From NCBI GenBank assembly GCA_019096195.1, contig JAGTXK010000055.1:1116001-1180000 (forward strand): a stretch of 64,000 nt of DNA. The letters run 5' to 3'. The notes beneath the pieces are model-generated. The model saw only the letters and a program-made list of their open reading frames with translations, had not been told where the DNA came from and did not search any database. Origin of the DNA: Boletus sp. NGJ. Lineage: Eukaryota > Basidiomycota > Agaricomycetes > Boletales > Boletaceae. Both the position numbers and the translations under genes were made by a program. Within the stretch, counting starts at the first letter, position 1. Each line of letters starts with the position of its first letter. Positions 137 to 56,320 of the stretch are shown in pieces.

Positions 137-2868
137 ATGTCGTTAACACTGTCGACAAAGACATCTCCATTTCCTTACGCTGCCCTCGCGATTGCGATAT
201 ACACCCAAAAGGCCGAGCTTAACTTCGATGAGACGGCGACAGGAGTTTCACTAGATCTAGACAGTGATAAATATGCCACCGAAGAGGAGATAGTCTCGAT
301 CCTTGCCAAGATCGCAGGTATAGATGGGCAGAGTACAAAGGTTCACTGATACGCTCCCGATACCTCTTGAAGCTGATCATGCCGCCAGGTGTCAACATAC
401 TTTGCATTAGCAAAGGTATTGCCCACAATAACGGCGGTTCCCGATATCCTCAGTGCTCTTGATTCATTGGATGATCACCTCGCATACCGTACATTCCTTG
501 TTGGTCACGAAATCACGGCAGCAGATTGGATGCTCTGGGGAACCATCAGAGGTACGTGACACCCTACGGTATCGTCGTGAGTATTCAAGTCCCTTTCTCT
601 TAGCATCCATCAAAATATTGGGTCTGCTCAAAAATGGTCAACACGTTCATGCCCTGCGGTGGTTTTCTCACCTGGAAAGCCTTGAATCCACACAGGCCGC
701 TCTGGCTAGTATCGTAACAGCCAAGTCAAACAAGGCGCGGAATACAAAAACCGCTGCAAGCTTTGCCCTGGGCCTTCAGAACGCCAAGGAAGGCAAGGTC
801 GTGACGCGCTTTCCTCCCGAGCCCAGCGGGTACTTGCACATTGGTCACGCCAAGGCTGCGGTATTAAACCAGTACTTTGCACAAATGTACAAGGGAAAAA
901 TGATCATCCGATTCGATGACACGAATCCGACCAAGGAGAGGGTGCGTGTCCGAGTCTACACTTGACCAGATTGTCTGCAGCTTATTTTTGGACTAGGCCG
1001 AGTTTGAACAGACTATCCTAGAGGATTTAGAGTTGATGGGCATTAAAGGAGACACTATAAGCCACACCTCGGACTATTTTGATCAGATCTACGAACTTGC
1101 GATCAAAATGATTGAAACTGGCAAGGCATATACCGACAACACGGAACAGGCTCAAGTACGATCCTTACGCACTGTCTTTCGTCGTTGCTCACATTAGGGT
1201 AGATGCGCGACGAACGGGGCAAGGGGATCGCTTCGGCACATCGCGATGACTCAGTTGAGGACAATTTGAAGCATTTTGCGGAAATGAAATCTGGCACGCC
1301 GGAGGGTATCCGGTGGTGTCTGCGTGCAAAGATCAGCGTGGATGATCAGAATAAAACTCTTCGTGACCCAGTCATCTACCGGTGTAACATGACTCCTCAC
1401 CATCGTACAGGGTTAGTTGTTTCGTGCATTTTTGTCGCGCGCGTATGCATTCATTCATTCATTATAGTGAGAAGTGGACGATCTACCCCACTTATGATTT
1501 CGCATGTCCCATCGTCGATTCCCTCGAGGGTGTCACTCATGCACTGAGGACTATAGAATATCGCGAGAGGAATGCTCAATATTACTGGATGATCGAGGCA
1601 TTAGGTCTGTGCCCTGTCTCTATCTGGGACTTCAGGTCCGGGATTTTCTTCCATATCCCCGTCTGTCAGTCTGACCACTGTTTCAAGTCGGTTGAATTTC
1701 ATCTATACCCTATTGTCTAAACGGAAATTGCATTGGTTCGTTGAAAACAAAATCGTCAAAGGGTGGGATGACCCACGGTTTCCTACCGTTCGAGGTCAGA
1801 ATGACAGAATCCGTACATTAATCAGACTCACTTTTAAAACAGGGATTCGTCGCCGTGGCATGACGGTAGAGGCACTGAAGCAATTCATGCTTTCCCAGGG
1901 GCCCTCACAGTCCCTCGTTTCTCTGGAATGGGATTCTATCTGGGCTCTCAACAAGAAGATAATAGATCCAGTTGCTCCCCGGTTCTGGACGATTCTCAAG
2001 GAGAAATGGTACGCTACCGCGTATGTGTGTATAAGGACTTTTGAGAAATTTACATTGGGCTTTCTCAGCGTACCTGTAACAATCAGCGGCGGGCCTACCG
2101 TAGTCGAGGTTAAAACACTGCCTCTCCATAAGAAGAATCCAGAGGTTGGCGAGAAGCAAACAGTCTACTCGTCCACGATCTTACTCGAGCAGGAGGATGC
2201 TACTTCATTTGAAGATCAAGAGGAGGCAAGCCTATCCTACTTATGAGTTGATTTTAAATAACATGCTCCATCAGATCACCCTAATGGATTGGGGTAACGC
2301 CTTCGTGCGTTCAAAAGTGGTCGGAAAAGACGGTGAAGTAACCTCCCTCGTTATGGAGCTGAACCTCGGTGGCGACTTCCGCAAAACGAAAAAGAAAATA
2401 ACCTGGCTCGCGAAACCCACGGACGCCCACCCAGTAATCGAAGTCACCCTTCTGGACTATGACTACCTGATTACAAAAAAGAAGCTTGAGGAAGAAGACG
2501 ACGTAAAGGATTTTGTCCCACCAGTAACCGAGTTTCGCGAAGAGGCACTGTCGGATGCGAACGTGAAAACGCTTGAAGCGGGTGATATCATCCAATTCGA
2601 GAGGAAAGGATATTACATCTTCGACGGACGCACAGGAGACGGAAAACTTGAATTTATCAGGATCCCGGATGGACGTGCAGCCGGTTTAGCGAGCAAGGCA
2701 GGCAAGGACGTCGCAGCCGCCGAGTGTTCTAGTCTTGCTACGCCCCCGTCAGGAGTTGGTCTTCAATCTATGTTGAAGGTGTATGATGTAGACCGGGTAT
2801 ATGGAGAGGATGGAGTATCGCCCGTGTCAGGAAGTAAGATGTACAAGGTAGAGAACGTGTACACGTAG
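137..2868 (+). CDS. GUS1: Cytoplasmic glutamyl-tRNA synthetase
   Basis: This class I synthetase charges tRNA-Glu with glutamate in the cytosol. The spliced model has nine introns (341-388, 552-603, 942-996, 1156-1202, 1412-1467, 1636-1687, 1795-1842, 2009-2068, 2226-2274) and gives exactly 754 codons plus a stop, close to yeast GUS1. The N-terminal part is GST-like ([12 protein letters not shown]). The catalytic core has the [18 protein letters not shown] motif containing the HIGH signature, and LLSKRKL as the KMSKS-type loop. It continues through [16 protein letters not shown] to the C-terminal anticodon-binding barrels. The ninth intron has a GC donor (gcaagc), required by the phase of DQEE|ITLMDWG. 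In yeast the GST-like domain contacts the cofactor Arc1; whether that holds here is not visible. Identification is very secure. Confidence 0.96.
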
Positions 2869-49282: not shown

Positions 49283-51342
49283 TCAGCTGGCGTTCCAAGT
49301 GTTGTGTAGGCCAACAGTAGCATCGATTGCCCCGTTCGCAGCCATATTCGAATCAGTCACAGGCTGTCCGTCGTAACCATTCGAGCCATTCGTGTCCTTG
49401 GTTTCCACAGCTTTGCGGCCAGTTGGAACCGCCTTGTTCTTCACATGGTCAGCTCTCAGCGACTCGATGTGGGCCAAGTATCCTTCATCAACACCTCCTG
49501 TAACATATTCTCCCGTAAAGACCGAACAGTCAAAGGTTTCGATTGACGGATTAAATTGACGGACAGAGGCGATCAAGTCTGGGAGCTTCTGAAAGATGAC
49601 AAGATCAGCACCGATGACCTCTGCGATTTCTTCGGTCGTCCGATCATATGCGACGAGTTCTGAGCGCGAGGGCATGTCGATGCCGTATACATTGGAATAC
49701 CTGCGCAGCGGATAAAAAAACGGACAGTTAGAGATAATGGTAGGTCCTACCGAATTGGGGGAGCACAACTCGCGACGACGACTTTCTTTGCTCCAACGTC
49801 TTTTGCCATCTGAATAATTTCCTTGGAAGTTGTGCCTCGCACGATTGAATCTGAAAGAGGCGCGCGATAATCGTACAGTCTGGCTATCCCAGGACAGTGA
49901 GACATACCGTCAACTAGTAGGACAGCTTTGTCGGCGAACTCGAGAGCCATAGCGTTAAGCTTCTTCCTCACATTCTTCCTCCTGGATATCGTCAGTATCG
50001 TCAGTATCGACCATTCGGTGAATGACTGGGAACATGCCTCATTTGTTGTCCGGGCATGATGAAAGTTCTGCCAACATACCGATTTTTAATGAATCCCTCC
50101 CGGTAAGGAAGCTGAAGCTTCTGGGCCAAGTTCAAGGCAGCGACACGGGATGTATCAGGTACCTAATGTTGATGATCGTATCGCAAATCAGAGCGTTTGA
50201 AGGTAGAGCGAACCAACCGGAATGACGACATCTATGGTGATCTCCTTCTCTAACAAAACCTTGCTTACTTCCTCCGCGAGGGCATCACCCATGGCCATCC
50301 GGCTCCGGTAGACGCTCACGCCATCCAATACGGAATCGGGTCGAGCAAAATAAACGTATTCGAAGATATCGGGTACAAGCTCTGCCGATTCGGCAACAAC
50401 GCGTCTCGATATCCCGGAGCGAGTGACAATTATAGCTTCGCCTATGAGGAGATTAGTATCCCTGGACTACAGTGGGGATTCATCAAACGTACCAGGTTTG
50501 ACATCCTGCCAGTCAGTGAAACCACCAGCATCGGCCACGATACTCTCGCTCGCGAATAGCCAATCCTTACCAGTAGCAGCTTTCCGAGATGCCATCCCAA
50601 TAGGGCGGATCCCATTCGGGTCCCTGAAGGCGATGATTCCGAACCCTGCAATCATCGCGACACAAGCGTAAGCACCCTTGCATTGCTTCATCAAACCTCC
50701 GGTGGCAGTGAAAATGTCTTCCTCATTTATGCGAAATTTTCCGGTTTGTTGAAGATTGTCGGCAAAGATGTTCAAGAGCAGTTCGGAATCGGACGAGGTG
50801 TTGATGTGCCGATGTGCTGTGGCATCCATATATTGCAATAAAGTTGCACTGTCGATAAGATTTCCATTCTGTGGAAGAACGCTGCGTGAAGATGTCATCT
50901 CTGGGGATCATCGTAAAAGTGGACATACATGAGCAAGTACGATACCATAGGGTGAATTAACGTAGAAAGGTTGAGCTTCAGCGTGGTTGGAACTGCCAGC
51001 TGTCGGGTATCGTACTTGGAAACGTCCCGAGGATTAGATATGAACAACCCGCTTATAGAAGAGGCTCACCGTGCCCGACTCCCATCCCGCCGATCAACCT
51101 TCCAAGAGAGTTGCCATCGAATACATCCCGGACCATTCCATTCGCCTTACATTGATAGAGACGGCCTTTGGGGCCGCAGGTGACGATGCCACATGCATCC
51201 TGACCACGGTGCTGTAACAAAGAAAGACCCTCGCAGATTTCGGCAGCCGCGTCGATGGTGGGATCGTGCAACAGTAGACCTAATATGCCACACACTAGAG
51301 TTTATCAATTTGTGAAGGTCGTGAGTTGCAATGAGACGTACT
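49283..51342 (-). CDS. ADE4: Amidophosphoribosyltransferase (first step of purine synthesis)
   Basis: Transfers the glutamine amide to PRPP to give 5-phosphoribosylamine. The N-terminal nucleophile hydrolase domain requires Met-Cys at the start: [19 protein letters not shown]. In the genome the codon before this Cys reads GTG. An ATG forms only if a 47-nt intron (51295-51341) is removed, joining A at 51342 to TG at 51294-51293; donor gtacgt and acceptor tctag are good. Later blocks: [92 protein letters not shown] and the PRPP site [18 protein letters not shown]. The tail is a variable Asn/Gly-rich stretch ending HNTWNAS. Confidence 0.95.
51295..51341 (-). other. Intron that splits the ADE4 start codon
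   Basis: On the minus strand the exon ends GCGCCA, the intron begins gtacgtctc and ends aactctag, and the next exon starts TGTGTGGCATA. Splicing creates ATG-TGT-GGC (Met-Cys-Gly). The catalytic cysteine must directly follow the initiator Met in this family, so the position is strongly constrained. See the finding on this intron. Confidence 0.85.
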
Positions 51343-51805
51343 GGCGCGGCGTGTGGATGAGGGAGGTGAACGTGTTGATGGAAGTTGTGCTATTGGTCGC
51401 CTTTAAATCGACAATGGGACCTCCATGGTGCAGTGAGCATTACCTCGGGTACGGCCGGATAAGCCAAGTTACTTGTCCTACTGATCAAATGTCTAACTCT
51501 TAGGCAATTCCTCAACTGACACCGCGCTCACACAACGCGCTAGTTTCGGTGTAATACGCGGTTGAACGCGGGTTGTATTCTTCAATACTACGATAGGGAT
51601 ATATGGGGTTCTACGTATGTCGTTAGCATGTAGCAAGTGATGGGCTACTGCCCGGGTAGTAGGTTGTGGTTGTGCTAGCTCAGTCTCTGGGCAAATGCTA
51701 CAGGATAAAGAAGAGTCAGAGAAACGTGCGTTCTACGGACGTGATGTTGTAAGAATGAGCGGAAGGATGAACTTCCGATGCCGGACGACAAAGGATCAAA
51801 GGCAA
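51343..51805. other. Intergenic region between SAM synthetase 3' end and ADE4 5' end
   Basis: About 460 bp. It should hold the ADE4 promoter, its 5' leader and the SAM synthetase 3' UTR. No gene was recognised. Confidence 0.45.
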
Positions 51806-53240
51806 TCAGAGGACGAGCTTCTTGGGCTTCTCCCACGTATAGTCCGGGTTACCGAAATGGCCGTAGGACGCAGTGCGTAGGTAGACAGGCTTCTGCAGTT
51901 CAAGCTCACGGACTGTGCATAGTGTTACAAGTGCGAACAGCTAAGCAAGACACCAAACTCACCCATGACTCCAGGTCGGAGATCCCAGTTCTTGCGGATA
52001 ATCGCAACAAGCTCGTCATTCGATTTCTTGCCAGTGCCATAAGTATCGACATAAATAGACAAGGGCTCGGCAACACCAATAGCGTAGGAGAGCTGAACGA
52101 GAACACGGCGAGCAAGACCAGCAGCAGCGAGCGACTTGGCTGAAATGGTCATCAGTATGCAGCTCACTCAAAGTAGTAGGGTATTGTACCAATCCAGCGA
52201 GCCGTGTAGGCAGCCGAGCGGTCAACCTTCGAAAAGTCTTTGCCGGAAAAGGCACCTCCACCGTGCGCTCCCCAACCGCCATACGTGTCAACAATGATCT
52301 TGCGGCCAGTCAAACCAGCATCACCCTGGGGACCGCCGATAACGAAGCGGCCCGAGGGTTGAATCTGATGCGATCGTAAATAAAATGAATACGATACCAC
52401 GAGCAAGGAGCGACGCTTACGTGGTAAGTGGTGTTGTCATCAAGGAGGTTGGCGGGAATAACTCCCTTGACGATTTTTTCCAAAATTTCCTTCCGAAGCT
52501 GCTCCGTTGAGATCTCATCAGCATGTTGCGTCGAGATGACAACGGTGTCTACTCGAAGAGGAATCATGGCACCGCCATCATTCTTGTACTCAACGGTGAC
52601 CTGTGTCTTGGAGTCAGGTCGCAGCCAGGGCAGTAGTCCAGAGCGACGAGCAGCAGCCATTGCTGCATTGAGCTTGTGGGCAAGCGTAATCGTCAAGGGC
52701 ATGTACTCCTCAGTCTCATCAGTAGCATAGCCGAACATGATGCCCTGGTCACCGGCACCATGCTCCTCCAGGGAGCCGTGATCAAGACCCTGGGCAATAT
52801 CAGGCGATTGTTGTTCGATTGCAACGAGAATGTTGCATGTCTTGTAGTCAAAGCCCTTGGACGAGTCGTCGTAGCCAATTTGCTTGATGGTGTTGCGGAT
52901 GACCTTCTGGTAGTCAAGCTGGGACTTGGTACTGATCTCACCAAAGACCATGATCATCCCGGTCTTGGAGGCCGTCTCACAGGCGACCTTTGACCAGGGA
53001 TCTTGTGCGAGACAGGCATCAAGCTAATCAAGCAAATGAAAAGGAATTTTCAAGATATGTAGTATGAGGCACTTACGATAGCGTCAGAGACCTGGTCACA
53101 GATTTTGTCTGAGGAACGTCAGGTGCGGAGTGTTGGAAAGTCGCGTAGGACACACCTGGGTGGCCTTCACCAACAGACTCGGATGTGAAGAGGAAGTGCC
53201 CTGGGGCAAGGGGCGGGCGTGCGCTACCGTTGGGAGACAT
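51806..53240 (-). CDS. S-adenosylmethionine synthetase
   Basis: Makes SAM from methionine and ATP. It starts [20 protein letters not shown] at ATG 53240, followed by ESVGEGHP with the catalytic His. Next come [78 protein letters not shown] then [17 protein letters not shown]. The C-terminus has [19 protein letters not shown] and WEKPKKLVL, ending at TGA 51806-51808. The two signature blocks GAGDQGxMFGY and GGGAFSGKD are intact. Around four introns. Homotetramer formation is expected from the family. Confidence 0.97.
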
Positions 53241-53435: not shown

Positions 53436-56320
53436 TTAAAACAATCCAACCCCGAGGGGATCTGTATTACTCATGGGTCGTTTCTGCTCCTGATCGATTT
53501 TCCTCTCACCGCTCAACCGCGTGGGAGGACCCGTCCCCACACCGGGACTCCGGTTTGCGATGCGAGACGGACCAGTTGTGGTTCGTCCATGTGGCGGACG
53601 TGCAACTGTCAGCTCCGCGTCGAATGGTCCTGGGTCCAACTGTCTGGGAGAGCGCGAACTTGCGGTGCTCCAGGGATTGTCGGTCGGTAGTGTCGGTATA
53701 GGCTTCCTCACGCTGTCCCAAGGGTTATACGATGATCCGGAGACGGTTGACGGTGGTTGCCCATCGTCAACGTCACGAGGCTGGAGTTCAGATGCCTTCC
53801 CAATATTTTCCTCGTCTCTAGATCCACTCGAGGGAACTTTTGAATCCTTCGTAACTCCGTCGTATGCTTCTTGCACGGCTGAGAATGCTGCGGTGGCATT
53901 CGACGATAACTTTCCCCAAACGGACTTCACTCCATTGCTAGAAAAGAAATCTGTGGGATTCGAGTTTCGCGCGCGGCCCTGTGGCGACGAATCGCTACCA
54001 AGTATGATGGGTTGTGCTGGAGGCCAAGAAGCCTTTAGAGTGGTCGAAGCCCCCACGTTTGTAAAACCTTCGGCAACTCTCTGGGGAAGGTCAGGTAAGG
54101 ACGACCACAACCCCTGAAAACCGGAAGACAGGCCCTCGGTAGCGGTAGATCTGGAGGGTGACAATGAAGGAGAAGAGGACAGCACGATTGAGGGGGGGTC
54201 AATAGTTGGTGGGAGTGGGGTATCTCCACGCGAGCTTGCAGCGTCGTCGTCGACACCTTCTGTCGAAGCGGGGGATTCAGACTCGTCCTTGACCTGAGAG
54301 ATAACGACTCTCCCATTCATTTCCTCGTCCGTGCGGCCATAAAGTTCGTACCAAAAGCGAACGTCCTTGGGATTGGGAAACAGCACTCCCATGTCCGCTT
54401 TGCCATCTCTGCGAGCTGGATCATCCAATGAACTGTCGTACAAGGGATTCTTGTGCTTTTCCATTTGTGGTGACGAGCTTATGAAGTCCCAGAGGCTTGC
54501 AGTGCTTTCCGACGGGACCATTCCATCTTCTCCATACCTGCGTTCCCGCTCGCAGTTATATAAAAACGTCCCAAATTGGCAGGAATAAAGATGATAGTGG
54601 ATCGTACGTAGGAAGCACTCGTTGAATTCAAATCGCTCAGGAAACTGCCGCAGCAGTTGACGAACGCATTCGAGGAATTGATGGAAAGAAGGACTCGTCT
54701 CCTTGATATGATGTTGGGACACAAAGCGGCTTTGAACCGAAGCCAGAAACGCTTGTGCAGCGTCGGCACCACCACTGCCATTCGCTGTGTCCGCCAAGGA
54801 CGTGAAAAACTTTTCGGATGATAGATGACCGGATCGATCCAAGAATCGGTGTCCAAAAGATATCCAGTCCTTTTCGACGAGTATCTGAAACCCACGCATC
54901 GTGCGATAGTATGGGTCCAAGCAGAGTTGAGCGAGAGCAGATAGTTGAGAAGTCCGATCCCACCCATCCGAGCAGTGAATCAGAACATGAGACGAGTTGA
55001 CATGTATATTTCGGACGATGAGAACCACGGCTTCCATTATATTAGACATATGACGGAGCCAACCGGATCGGCGCAGCGCTTGGCGGTCCAAGATAGCAAG
55101 TTGCTGCGCTTCTCCAGGGAGATATCCGCTCACACTAGCAGCCACGGTATCTGCTTCGCGAAGAGCATCCACAACTTTGCCTAGAGATTCGCGCATTGCG
55201 TGGATATGGTCGATACCAGAATAGGTCTTCTTTGCGTCCTTGTAATATTCCATATTTTCTGTGCCAGCGCCTCTGGCAGTGTTCGCAACGGCATTAGCAG
55301 TTGGGCGTGCATCTACAATCAGATTTGTGGTGGTTGCACCATAAACTGGGACGGTTGGTGATCGAGATTCGGGAGAATGATGGGTTTGAAAGATAGCCTC
55401 CACAAGTTTTTCATCCTGGACAGAGCGGTTCTGTTTAATTCCGACCATAGGTTGACTCGAGCGAGTTATGCTAGCCTGTGCGCGAATTGTAAGAAATCTT
55501 GTCTCGTGAACAGAACAGAGCTCATTACGTAGTTCGCCCAGTGCAAATAAGTCAGAGCGGGAATTCTACATTTGCTCCTGTGTTTTGATGCATACTGAAG
55601 TGTAGAATCACTTATCCGTGTCGGGACAACCAAACGCGATGGGTAAGATGGGCTAAACTACAAACGCAATCAATTATTATCTTTGGTTAAACAGATAAAA
55701 GACTTTACCTGGTAATCTTTGTTGATGTCTGTAAAGCGCCAAGTCTTCGTTCGGGTACCAACACCCATTCGTCCAAACTCTTCCCGCGGAGAGTACATCG
55801 ACCATCCTCCAACAGAGTCCAGGGGTGGGTTTGGAGAATAGAAGAATGCATAGAGCTGATTGACGGAGGCTATTTGCTTGTTGGTTACAACACTTGCTGG
55901 GGAACGAGTGCAACCTACTGCACACCGTCAACTCTCTGACGCTTTCGAAAACGTCGATAGCATCGCGGTCGCTCCCAAAGGATATGGAGAACGTCTCGAA
56001 CGTTCGTGTATGAAAGGTAATCGGACTCCGCCCATGCAAAGTGTGCGGGAGCTGCATGACGAGCGAAATCAATGGATATGGAACCTCAAATTGGTCTCAG
56101 CACAGAGATGAGCGGTAAGATGAAAGAGAACTCGCCCACATCTCCTCTTTATCTGGATCTTCGTAACGAAATATCAGGTGGTGTGCTGTCAGGTGCAGGG
56201 AGCCATACTGGACGCTCCCTGATTTACCGCAGAGAACTTTCTCGACCTGTGAATTCGTAAGCTTGGATCCAATGACCTTGGTGTCTGCATACTTGCCTTG
56301 GAGATGCGGATCGCGTCCAT
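53436..56320 (-). CDS. YMR1: Myotubularin-type phosphoinositide 3-phosphatase
   Basis: Removes the 3-phosphate from PI3P or PI(3,5)P2 on endosomal and vacuolar membranes. The ATG at 56320 gives a short exon MDAIRISK, then a GC-AG intron (56247-56296, donor gcaagt) required by phase. Next is VEKVLCGKSGSVQYGSLHLT, part of an N-terminal GRAM/PH-like domain. The phosphatase domain includes TTTNLIVDARPTANAVANTA, the P-loop HCSDGWDRTSQL (CX5R: CSDGWDR) and ALAQLCLDPYYRTMRGFQIL then VEKDWISFGHRF. After that come FHQFLECVRQLLRQFPERFE and a long Ser/Pro-rich tail. All catalytic residues are present. It is the only myotubularin in the window and corresponds to yeast Ymr1 by family. Confidence 0.93.

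Follow-up and report, generated by a model that had tools for sequence, protein, structure and literature searches.

A predicted 47-nt intron splits the start codon of an ADE4-family gene in Boletus sp. NGJ

Where does a protein begin when its catalytic cysteine must directly follow the initiator methionine, and the genome carries no ATG at that place? The question is raised by an ADE4-family gene in a 64,000-nt stretch of the genome of Boletus sp. NGJ (GenBank assembly GCA_019096195.1, contig JAGTXK010000055.1, positions 1,116,001 to 1,180,000), which is referred to here as the window and numbered from its first base. A preliminary description of this DNA had proposed that splicing of a short intron creates the start codon, and that enzyme output could depend on that event. 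The point bears mostly on annotation: a gene finder that demands an uninterrupted ATG would start ADE4 at the wrong residue, and in enzymes with an N-terminal nucleophile the active site is that very first residue. The case is a clean one, since catalysis dictates independently where the start codon must be, and a split AUG can therefore be called from DNA alone.

The ADE4 product and its gene model

By its predicted product, the gene is a fungal amidophosphoribosyltransferase of the ADE4/purF family, the enzyme that opens purine synthesis. Nine exons and eight introns extend along the minus strand from 51342 to 49283, the final base of the stop codon, and join into a product of 542 aa (Table 1). 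Residues 2-469 of this product matched TIGR01134 (purF) at 436.7 bits, above the equivalog cut-off of 350, and three solved chains of E. coli-type PurF matched it at 556-558 bits. In the alignment with 8w7d (558 bits), query residues 1-491 were paired with chain residues 1-488, residue 1 falling on residue 1, and in that with 1ecb (555.9 bits), residue 1 of the chain stood opposite query Cys2. Because the alignments start at residue 1 or at Cys2, homology independently demands a Met right before the Cys; the alignment by itself predicts an enzyme of the E. coli type, with Cys directly after Met and no propeptide. In E. coli-type PurF, removal of the Met exposes the Cys as the N-terminal nucleophile.

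Splice sites were called by fixed consensus rules, and introns were verified by homology or by eye. Expectation-maximisation splice profiles, built from joined reading frames over 264 kb (31 groups in the first attempt), were rejected after they drifted to non-introns with a C-rich donor position +3. Introns 2-8 of ADE4 measure 50-60 nt, and six of the eight introns, intron 1 among them, contain a YTRAY motif placed so that its A is 7-30 nt from the intron end. For intron 6, a 98-nt model that took the GT at 50079 as donor (giving a product of 528 aa) was replaced by a GC-AG intron because it deleted a conserved stretch aligned to the PDB chains. As a separate observation, use of that GT donor, 42 nt upstream of intron 6, would yield an in-frame 528-aa form that lacks 14 of the residues in the conserved stretch.

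Table 1. Features of the ADE4 gene, in window coordinates
Feature	Position	Strand	Basis
Coding exon 1, A of the start codon (predicted)	51342..51342	-	Donor scan, in silico joining, homology (Met directly before Cys)
Intron 1 (predicted), 47 nt, GTACGT...TTGAT...CTAG, A/TG split	51295..51341	-	Single GTRNGT donor, rarity count
Coding exon 2, start-codon TG, catalytic Cys TGT at 51292-51290, up to intron 2	51070..51294	-	In silico joining, alignment
TAA in frame in unspliced RNA	51302..51304	-	Four codons 5' of the Cys codon
Coding exons 3-9 and introns 3-8	49283..51014	-	TIGR01134 436.7 bits, PDB alignments
Exons 3-5	51014-50929, 50868-50493, 50441-50218	-	
Exons 6-9	50162-50038, 49981-49908, 49850-49751, 49700-49283	-	
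Intron 6, GC-AG, 56 nt, GCATGT...CAG, CTGAC twice	49982..50037	-	Preserves the aligned conserved stretch

The predicted split start codon and competing 5' ends

In genomic DNA, the TGT codon of the catalytic Cys is preceded by GTG and not by ATG, exactly as had been reported, and the position is now fixed to the base on the minus strand. Removal of intron 1 in silico fuses the single A of coding exon 1 with the TG that follows the acceptor, and the joined frame opens ATG-TGT-GGC. The signals described earlier, a gtacgt donor and a ctag acceptor enclosing 47 nt, are present as claimed. The donor hexamer GTACGT is common to introns 1 and 4, and intron 1 ends in CTCTAG; the A of a TTGAT motif is found 10 nt from its last base. 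Between 30 and 500 nt upstream of the acceptor, the proposed donor is the sole match to GTRNGT, and it yields ATG. Seven further GT sites in this range also give A joined to TG, none of the seven matching GTRNGT, and the introns they define would be at least 178 nt long. Given that the other seven ADE4 introns measure 50-60 nt, a 47-nt intron 1 is close to their range. In short, an ATG that is absent from the genome at the start defined by homology would arise once an intron bearing host-type signals is removed, as judged on the seven other ADE4 introns and on four introns, read by eye, of a glmS/GFA1-like gene (L002) of the same genome. These features argue strongly that intron 1 is spliced.

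The unspliced RNA offers no equivalent start. Reading upstream in the frame of the Cys codon, the triplets are GTG, CTA, ACT, and TAA, and with a stop so near the Cys codon there is no usable in-frame ATG upstream. If intron 1 were kept, the first in-frame ATG downstream would be codon 54 of the normal protein, beyond the catalytic Cys. The earlier statement that unspliced RNA lacks an AUG for active enzyme thus holds in silico; like the splice signals and the full-length homology, this absence can be read directly from the DNA.

Two other readings of the 5' end were weighed. One would dispense with the intron and have translation begin at the genomic GTG, a near-cognate codon located exactly at the Met position. 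Near-cognate initiation has precedent in some fungal genes, in which ACG, AUU, and CUG serve as starts, GUG being absent from the examples in the available part of that report (PMC7049704). This reading, however, would make mere coincidences of a consensus donor, an acceptor, and a junction that places A precisely before TG, and we regard it as extremely unlikely. The other reading retains splicing but draws on a longer upstream exon, beginning at an ATG at 51440 and ending at a GTCGAT donor at 51412, with a 118-nt intron; about ten residues would then precede the Cys and be cut off as a propeptide. Such a propeptide is cut from the B. subtilis and vertebrate enzymes, and no upstream ATG except the one at 51440 can be brought into frame by any GT donor up to 500 nt from the acceptor. 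Yet the donor falls outside GTRNGT and the intron is roughly twice as long as the other ADE4 introns. Furthermore, the protein is far nearer to the propeptide-free E. coli-type chains than to its weaker matches, which include 1ao0 and 1gph (278-279 bits), presumably the B. subtilis enzymes, 9q0n and 9q0m (about 239 bits), and a plant chain (262 bits). A longer first exon therefore appears very improbable, and a one-base first coding exon remains the preferred reading.

How readily such a junction might arise by chance was gauged on both strands of the 264 kb that comprise the window and its surroundings. This DNA contains 37,451 TG sites, 926 of them directly after YAG. An A|GTRNGT donor lay 40-70 nt upstream of 19 of the 926 YAG|TG sites, and only four (4/926 YAG|TG sites, or 4/37,451 TG sites) combined the donor with a branch-like YTRAY near the 3' end, the ADE4 site being among them. 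Two of the four open onto a frame of 60 codons or more: ADE4 and C22:1008398, the latter seemingly a Met codon inside a hydratase-like gene, as judged by motif. Since C22:1008398 is probably internal, an A|TG junction by itself is no proof of a start. A looser A|TG scan of the same 264 kb, requiring 35 or more codons of open frame downstream, returned 23 sites including ADE4; no site besides ADE4 was recognised among these 23 as a split gene start, and two appear from their motifs to be internal codons of hydratase-like and kinase genes. The A|intron|TG arrangement is thus uncommon, and in ADE4 it falls exactly at the Met position that homology demands.

Intron retention and the question of regulation

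The preliminary description had gone further, suggesting that a start codon assembled by splicing ties enzyme output especially to intron 1. The assembly itself stood up in silico; the special dependence did not. When each ADE4 intron was retained singly in silico, introns 2, 3, 4, 5, 6, and 8 truncated the protein at 80, 110, 237, 313, 357, and 404 aa, respectively, and intron 7 kept the frame, adding 19 residues. Retention of intron 1 loses the start, whereas the other truncating introns gain a stop. Six of the seven other introns would therefore ruin the enzyme if kept. Enzyme loss through retention is thus general in ADE4, intron 1 does not stand out in this, and it was not found to have greater leverage on the protein than the other ADE4 introns. 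Separately, intron 7 (49907-49851, minus strand, 57 nt) contains no in-frame stop, and a transcript that kept it would encode 561 aa.

These results bear on a regulated switch, in which purine supply would set the retention of intron 1 and thereby control enzyme output. With plentiful purines, the intron would be kept, no AUG would be formed, and the committed step of purine synthesis would be turned off, perhaps together with two short upstream reading frames just 5' of ADE4. These frames, on the minus strand, begin at 51440 (16 codons) and at 51426 (7 codons, context CACCATGG), and they are relevant only if the transcript begins upstream of them. The loss of the AUG upon retention and the presence of the upstream frames speak for such a switch. 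Against it, six of the seven other introns also ruin the enzyme when any one of them is kept, and the RNA around intron 1 folds no better than shuffled sequence (z = -0.74, with 38 of 200 shuffles at least as good). In addition, the accessible text of a 2026 study (PMC13309789) describes 42 Yarrowia introns whose 5' splice site lies right after one of the start-codon bases (A, T, or G), and reports high splicing efficiency for these introns and high, steady expression, with low variability, for their genes. A regulatory role for the split start of ADE4 is not supported, and we hold purine-controlled retention, as well as the fuller scheme that enlists the upstream frames, to be most doubtful.

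We propose instead, with high confidence, that the ADE4 AUG is assembled by constitutive removal of a 47-nt intron whose position is accidental, with no dedicated switch. The first coding exon would consist of one base, the A of the AUG. The spliceosome would excise the 47-nt intron and join A to UG, opening the frame AUG-UGU-GGC, and the initiator Met would presumably then be cleaved off, leaving the Cys as nucleophile at the N-terminus in the manner of E. coli-type PurF. Intron 1 is most likely spliced constitutively, its place being an accident of where introns come to lie at the 5' end of a gene.

Related genes and known split starts

The split is no rule for this class of enzyme in the genome. 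Two further amidotransferase genes with a Met-Cys start, the glmS/GFA1-like L002 and the asparagine-synthase-like L003, have an uninterrupted ATG-TGT, so that one of the three such genes examined carries a split start. The tested exon of L002 best matched glmS (NF001484, 182.9 bits) and that of L003 best matched asparagine synthase B (157.9 bits); neither score reaches the cut-off set for the whole protein, as one would expect when a lone exon is scored. The four introns of L002 read by eye measure 51, 52, 53, and 108 nt. L002 may also have a 56-nt intron in its 5' leader (1098-1153, plus strand, gtatgt...catcag), which would end 14 nt before the intact ATG. Upstream of ADE4, on the same strand, lie a gene for S-adenosylmethionine synthetase (52313-53023, minus strand; PF00438 and PF02772) and, upstream of that, one for a myotubularin-related phosphatase (53439-55565, minus strand; PF06602, 370 bits). 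One scan of viral contigs for relatives returned none.

The available part of PMC7552465 names the Coprinopsis ADE4 gene without describing its 5' end, and that of PMC5851062 mentions neither 'start codon' nor 'ATG' nor 'AUG'. The arrangement itself has clear precedent. In the available text of PMC2911113, 47 genes of Yarrowia lipolytica are reported whose first coding exon consists of just the initiation-codon A. Since these have exactly the A|TG arrangement, the split start of ADE4 belongs to a known kind of structure; it is a real gene structure, mildly pretty, and no new mechanism.

In sum, three known systems frame the ADE4 start. As in the Yarrowia genes, a spliceosomal intron would divide A from TG and the start codon would exist only after splicing; however, Yarrowia belongs to another fungal lineage, in which introns have a median length of 204 bp and the branch point and the 3' splice motif are about one nucleotide apart (PMC2911113), whereas ADE4 has eight introns, the first of 47 nt with TTGAT 10 nt from its end. 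The survey of Nielsen and Wernersson (2006; PMC1626468), as far as its available text extends, described how phase 0 introns peak immediately downstream of the start codon in many eukaryotes, fungi included, and noted that an intron interrupting the start codon itself is relatively rare. ADE4 resembles those genes in having its first coding intron at the start codon, but theirs directly follows the ATG and the predicted ADE4 intron lies inside it. Lastly, the ADE4 product shares with E. coli-type PurF (1ecb, 8w7d) a Met-Cys start, an alignment free of any propeptide, and similarity over residues 1-491, and it differs from that enzyme in being fungal, in its eight introns, and in a C-terminal tail past residue 491.
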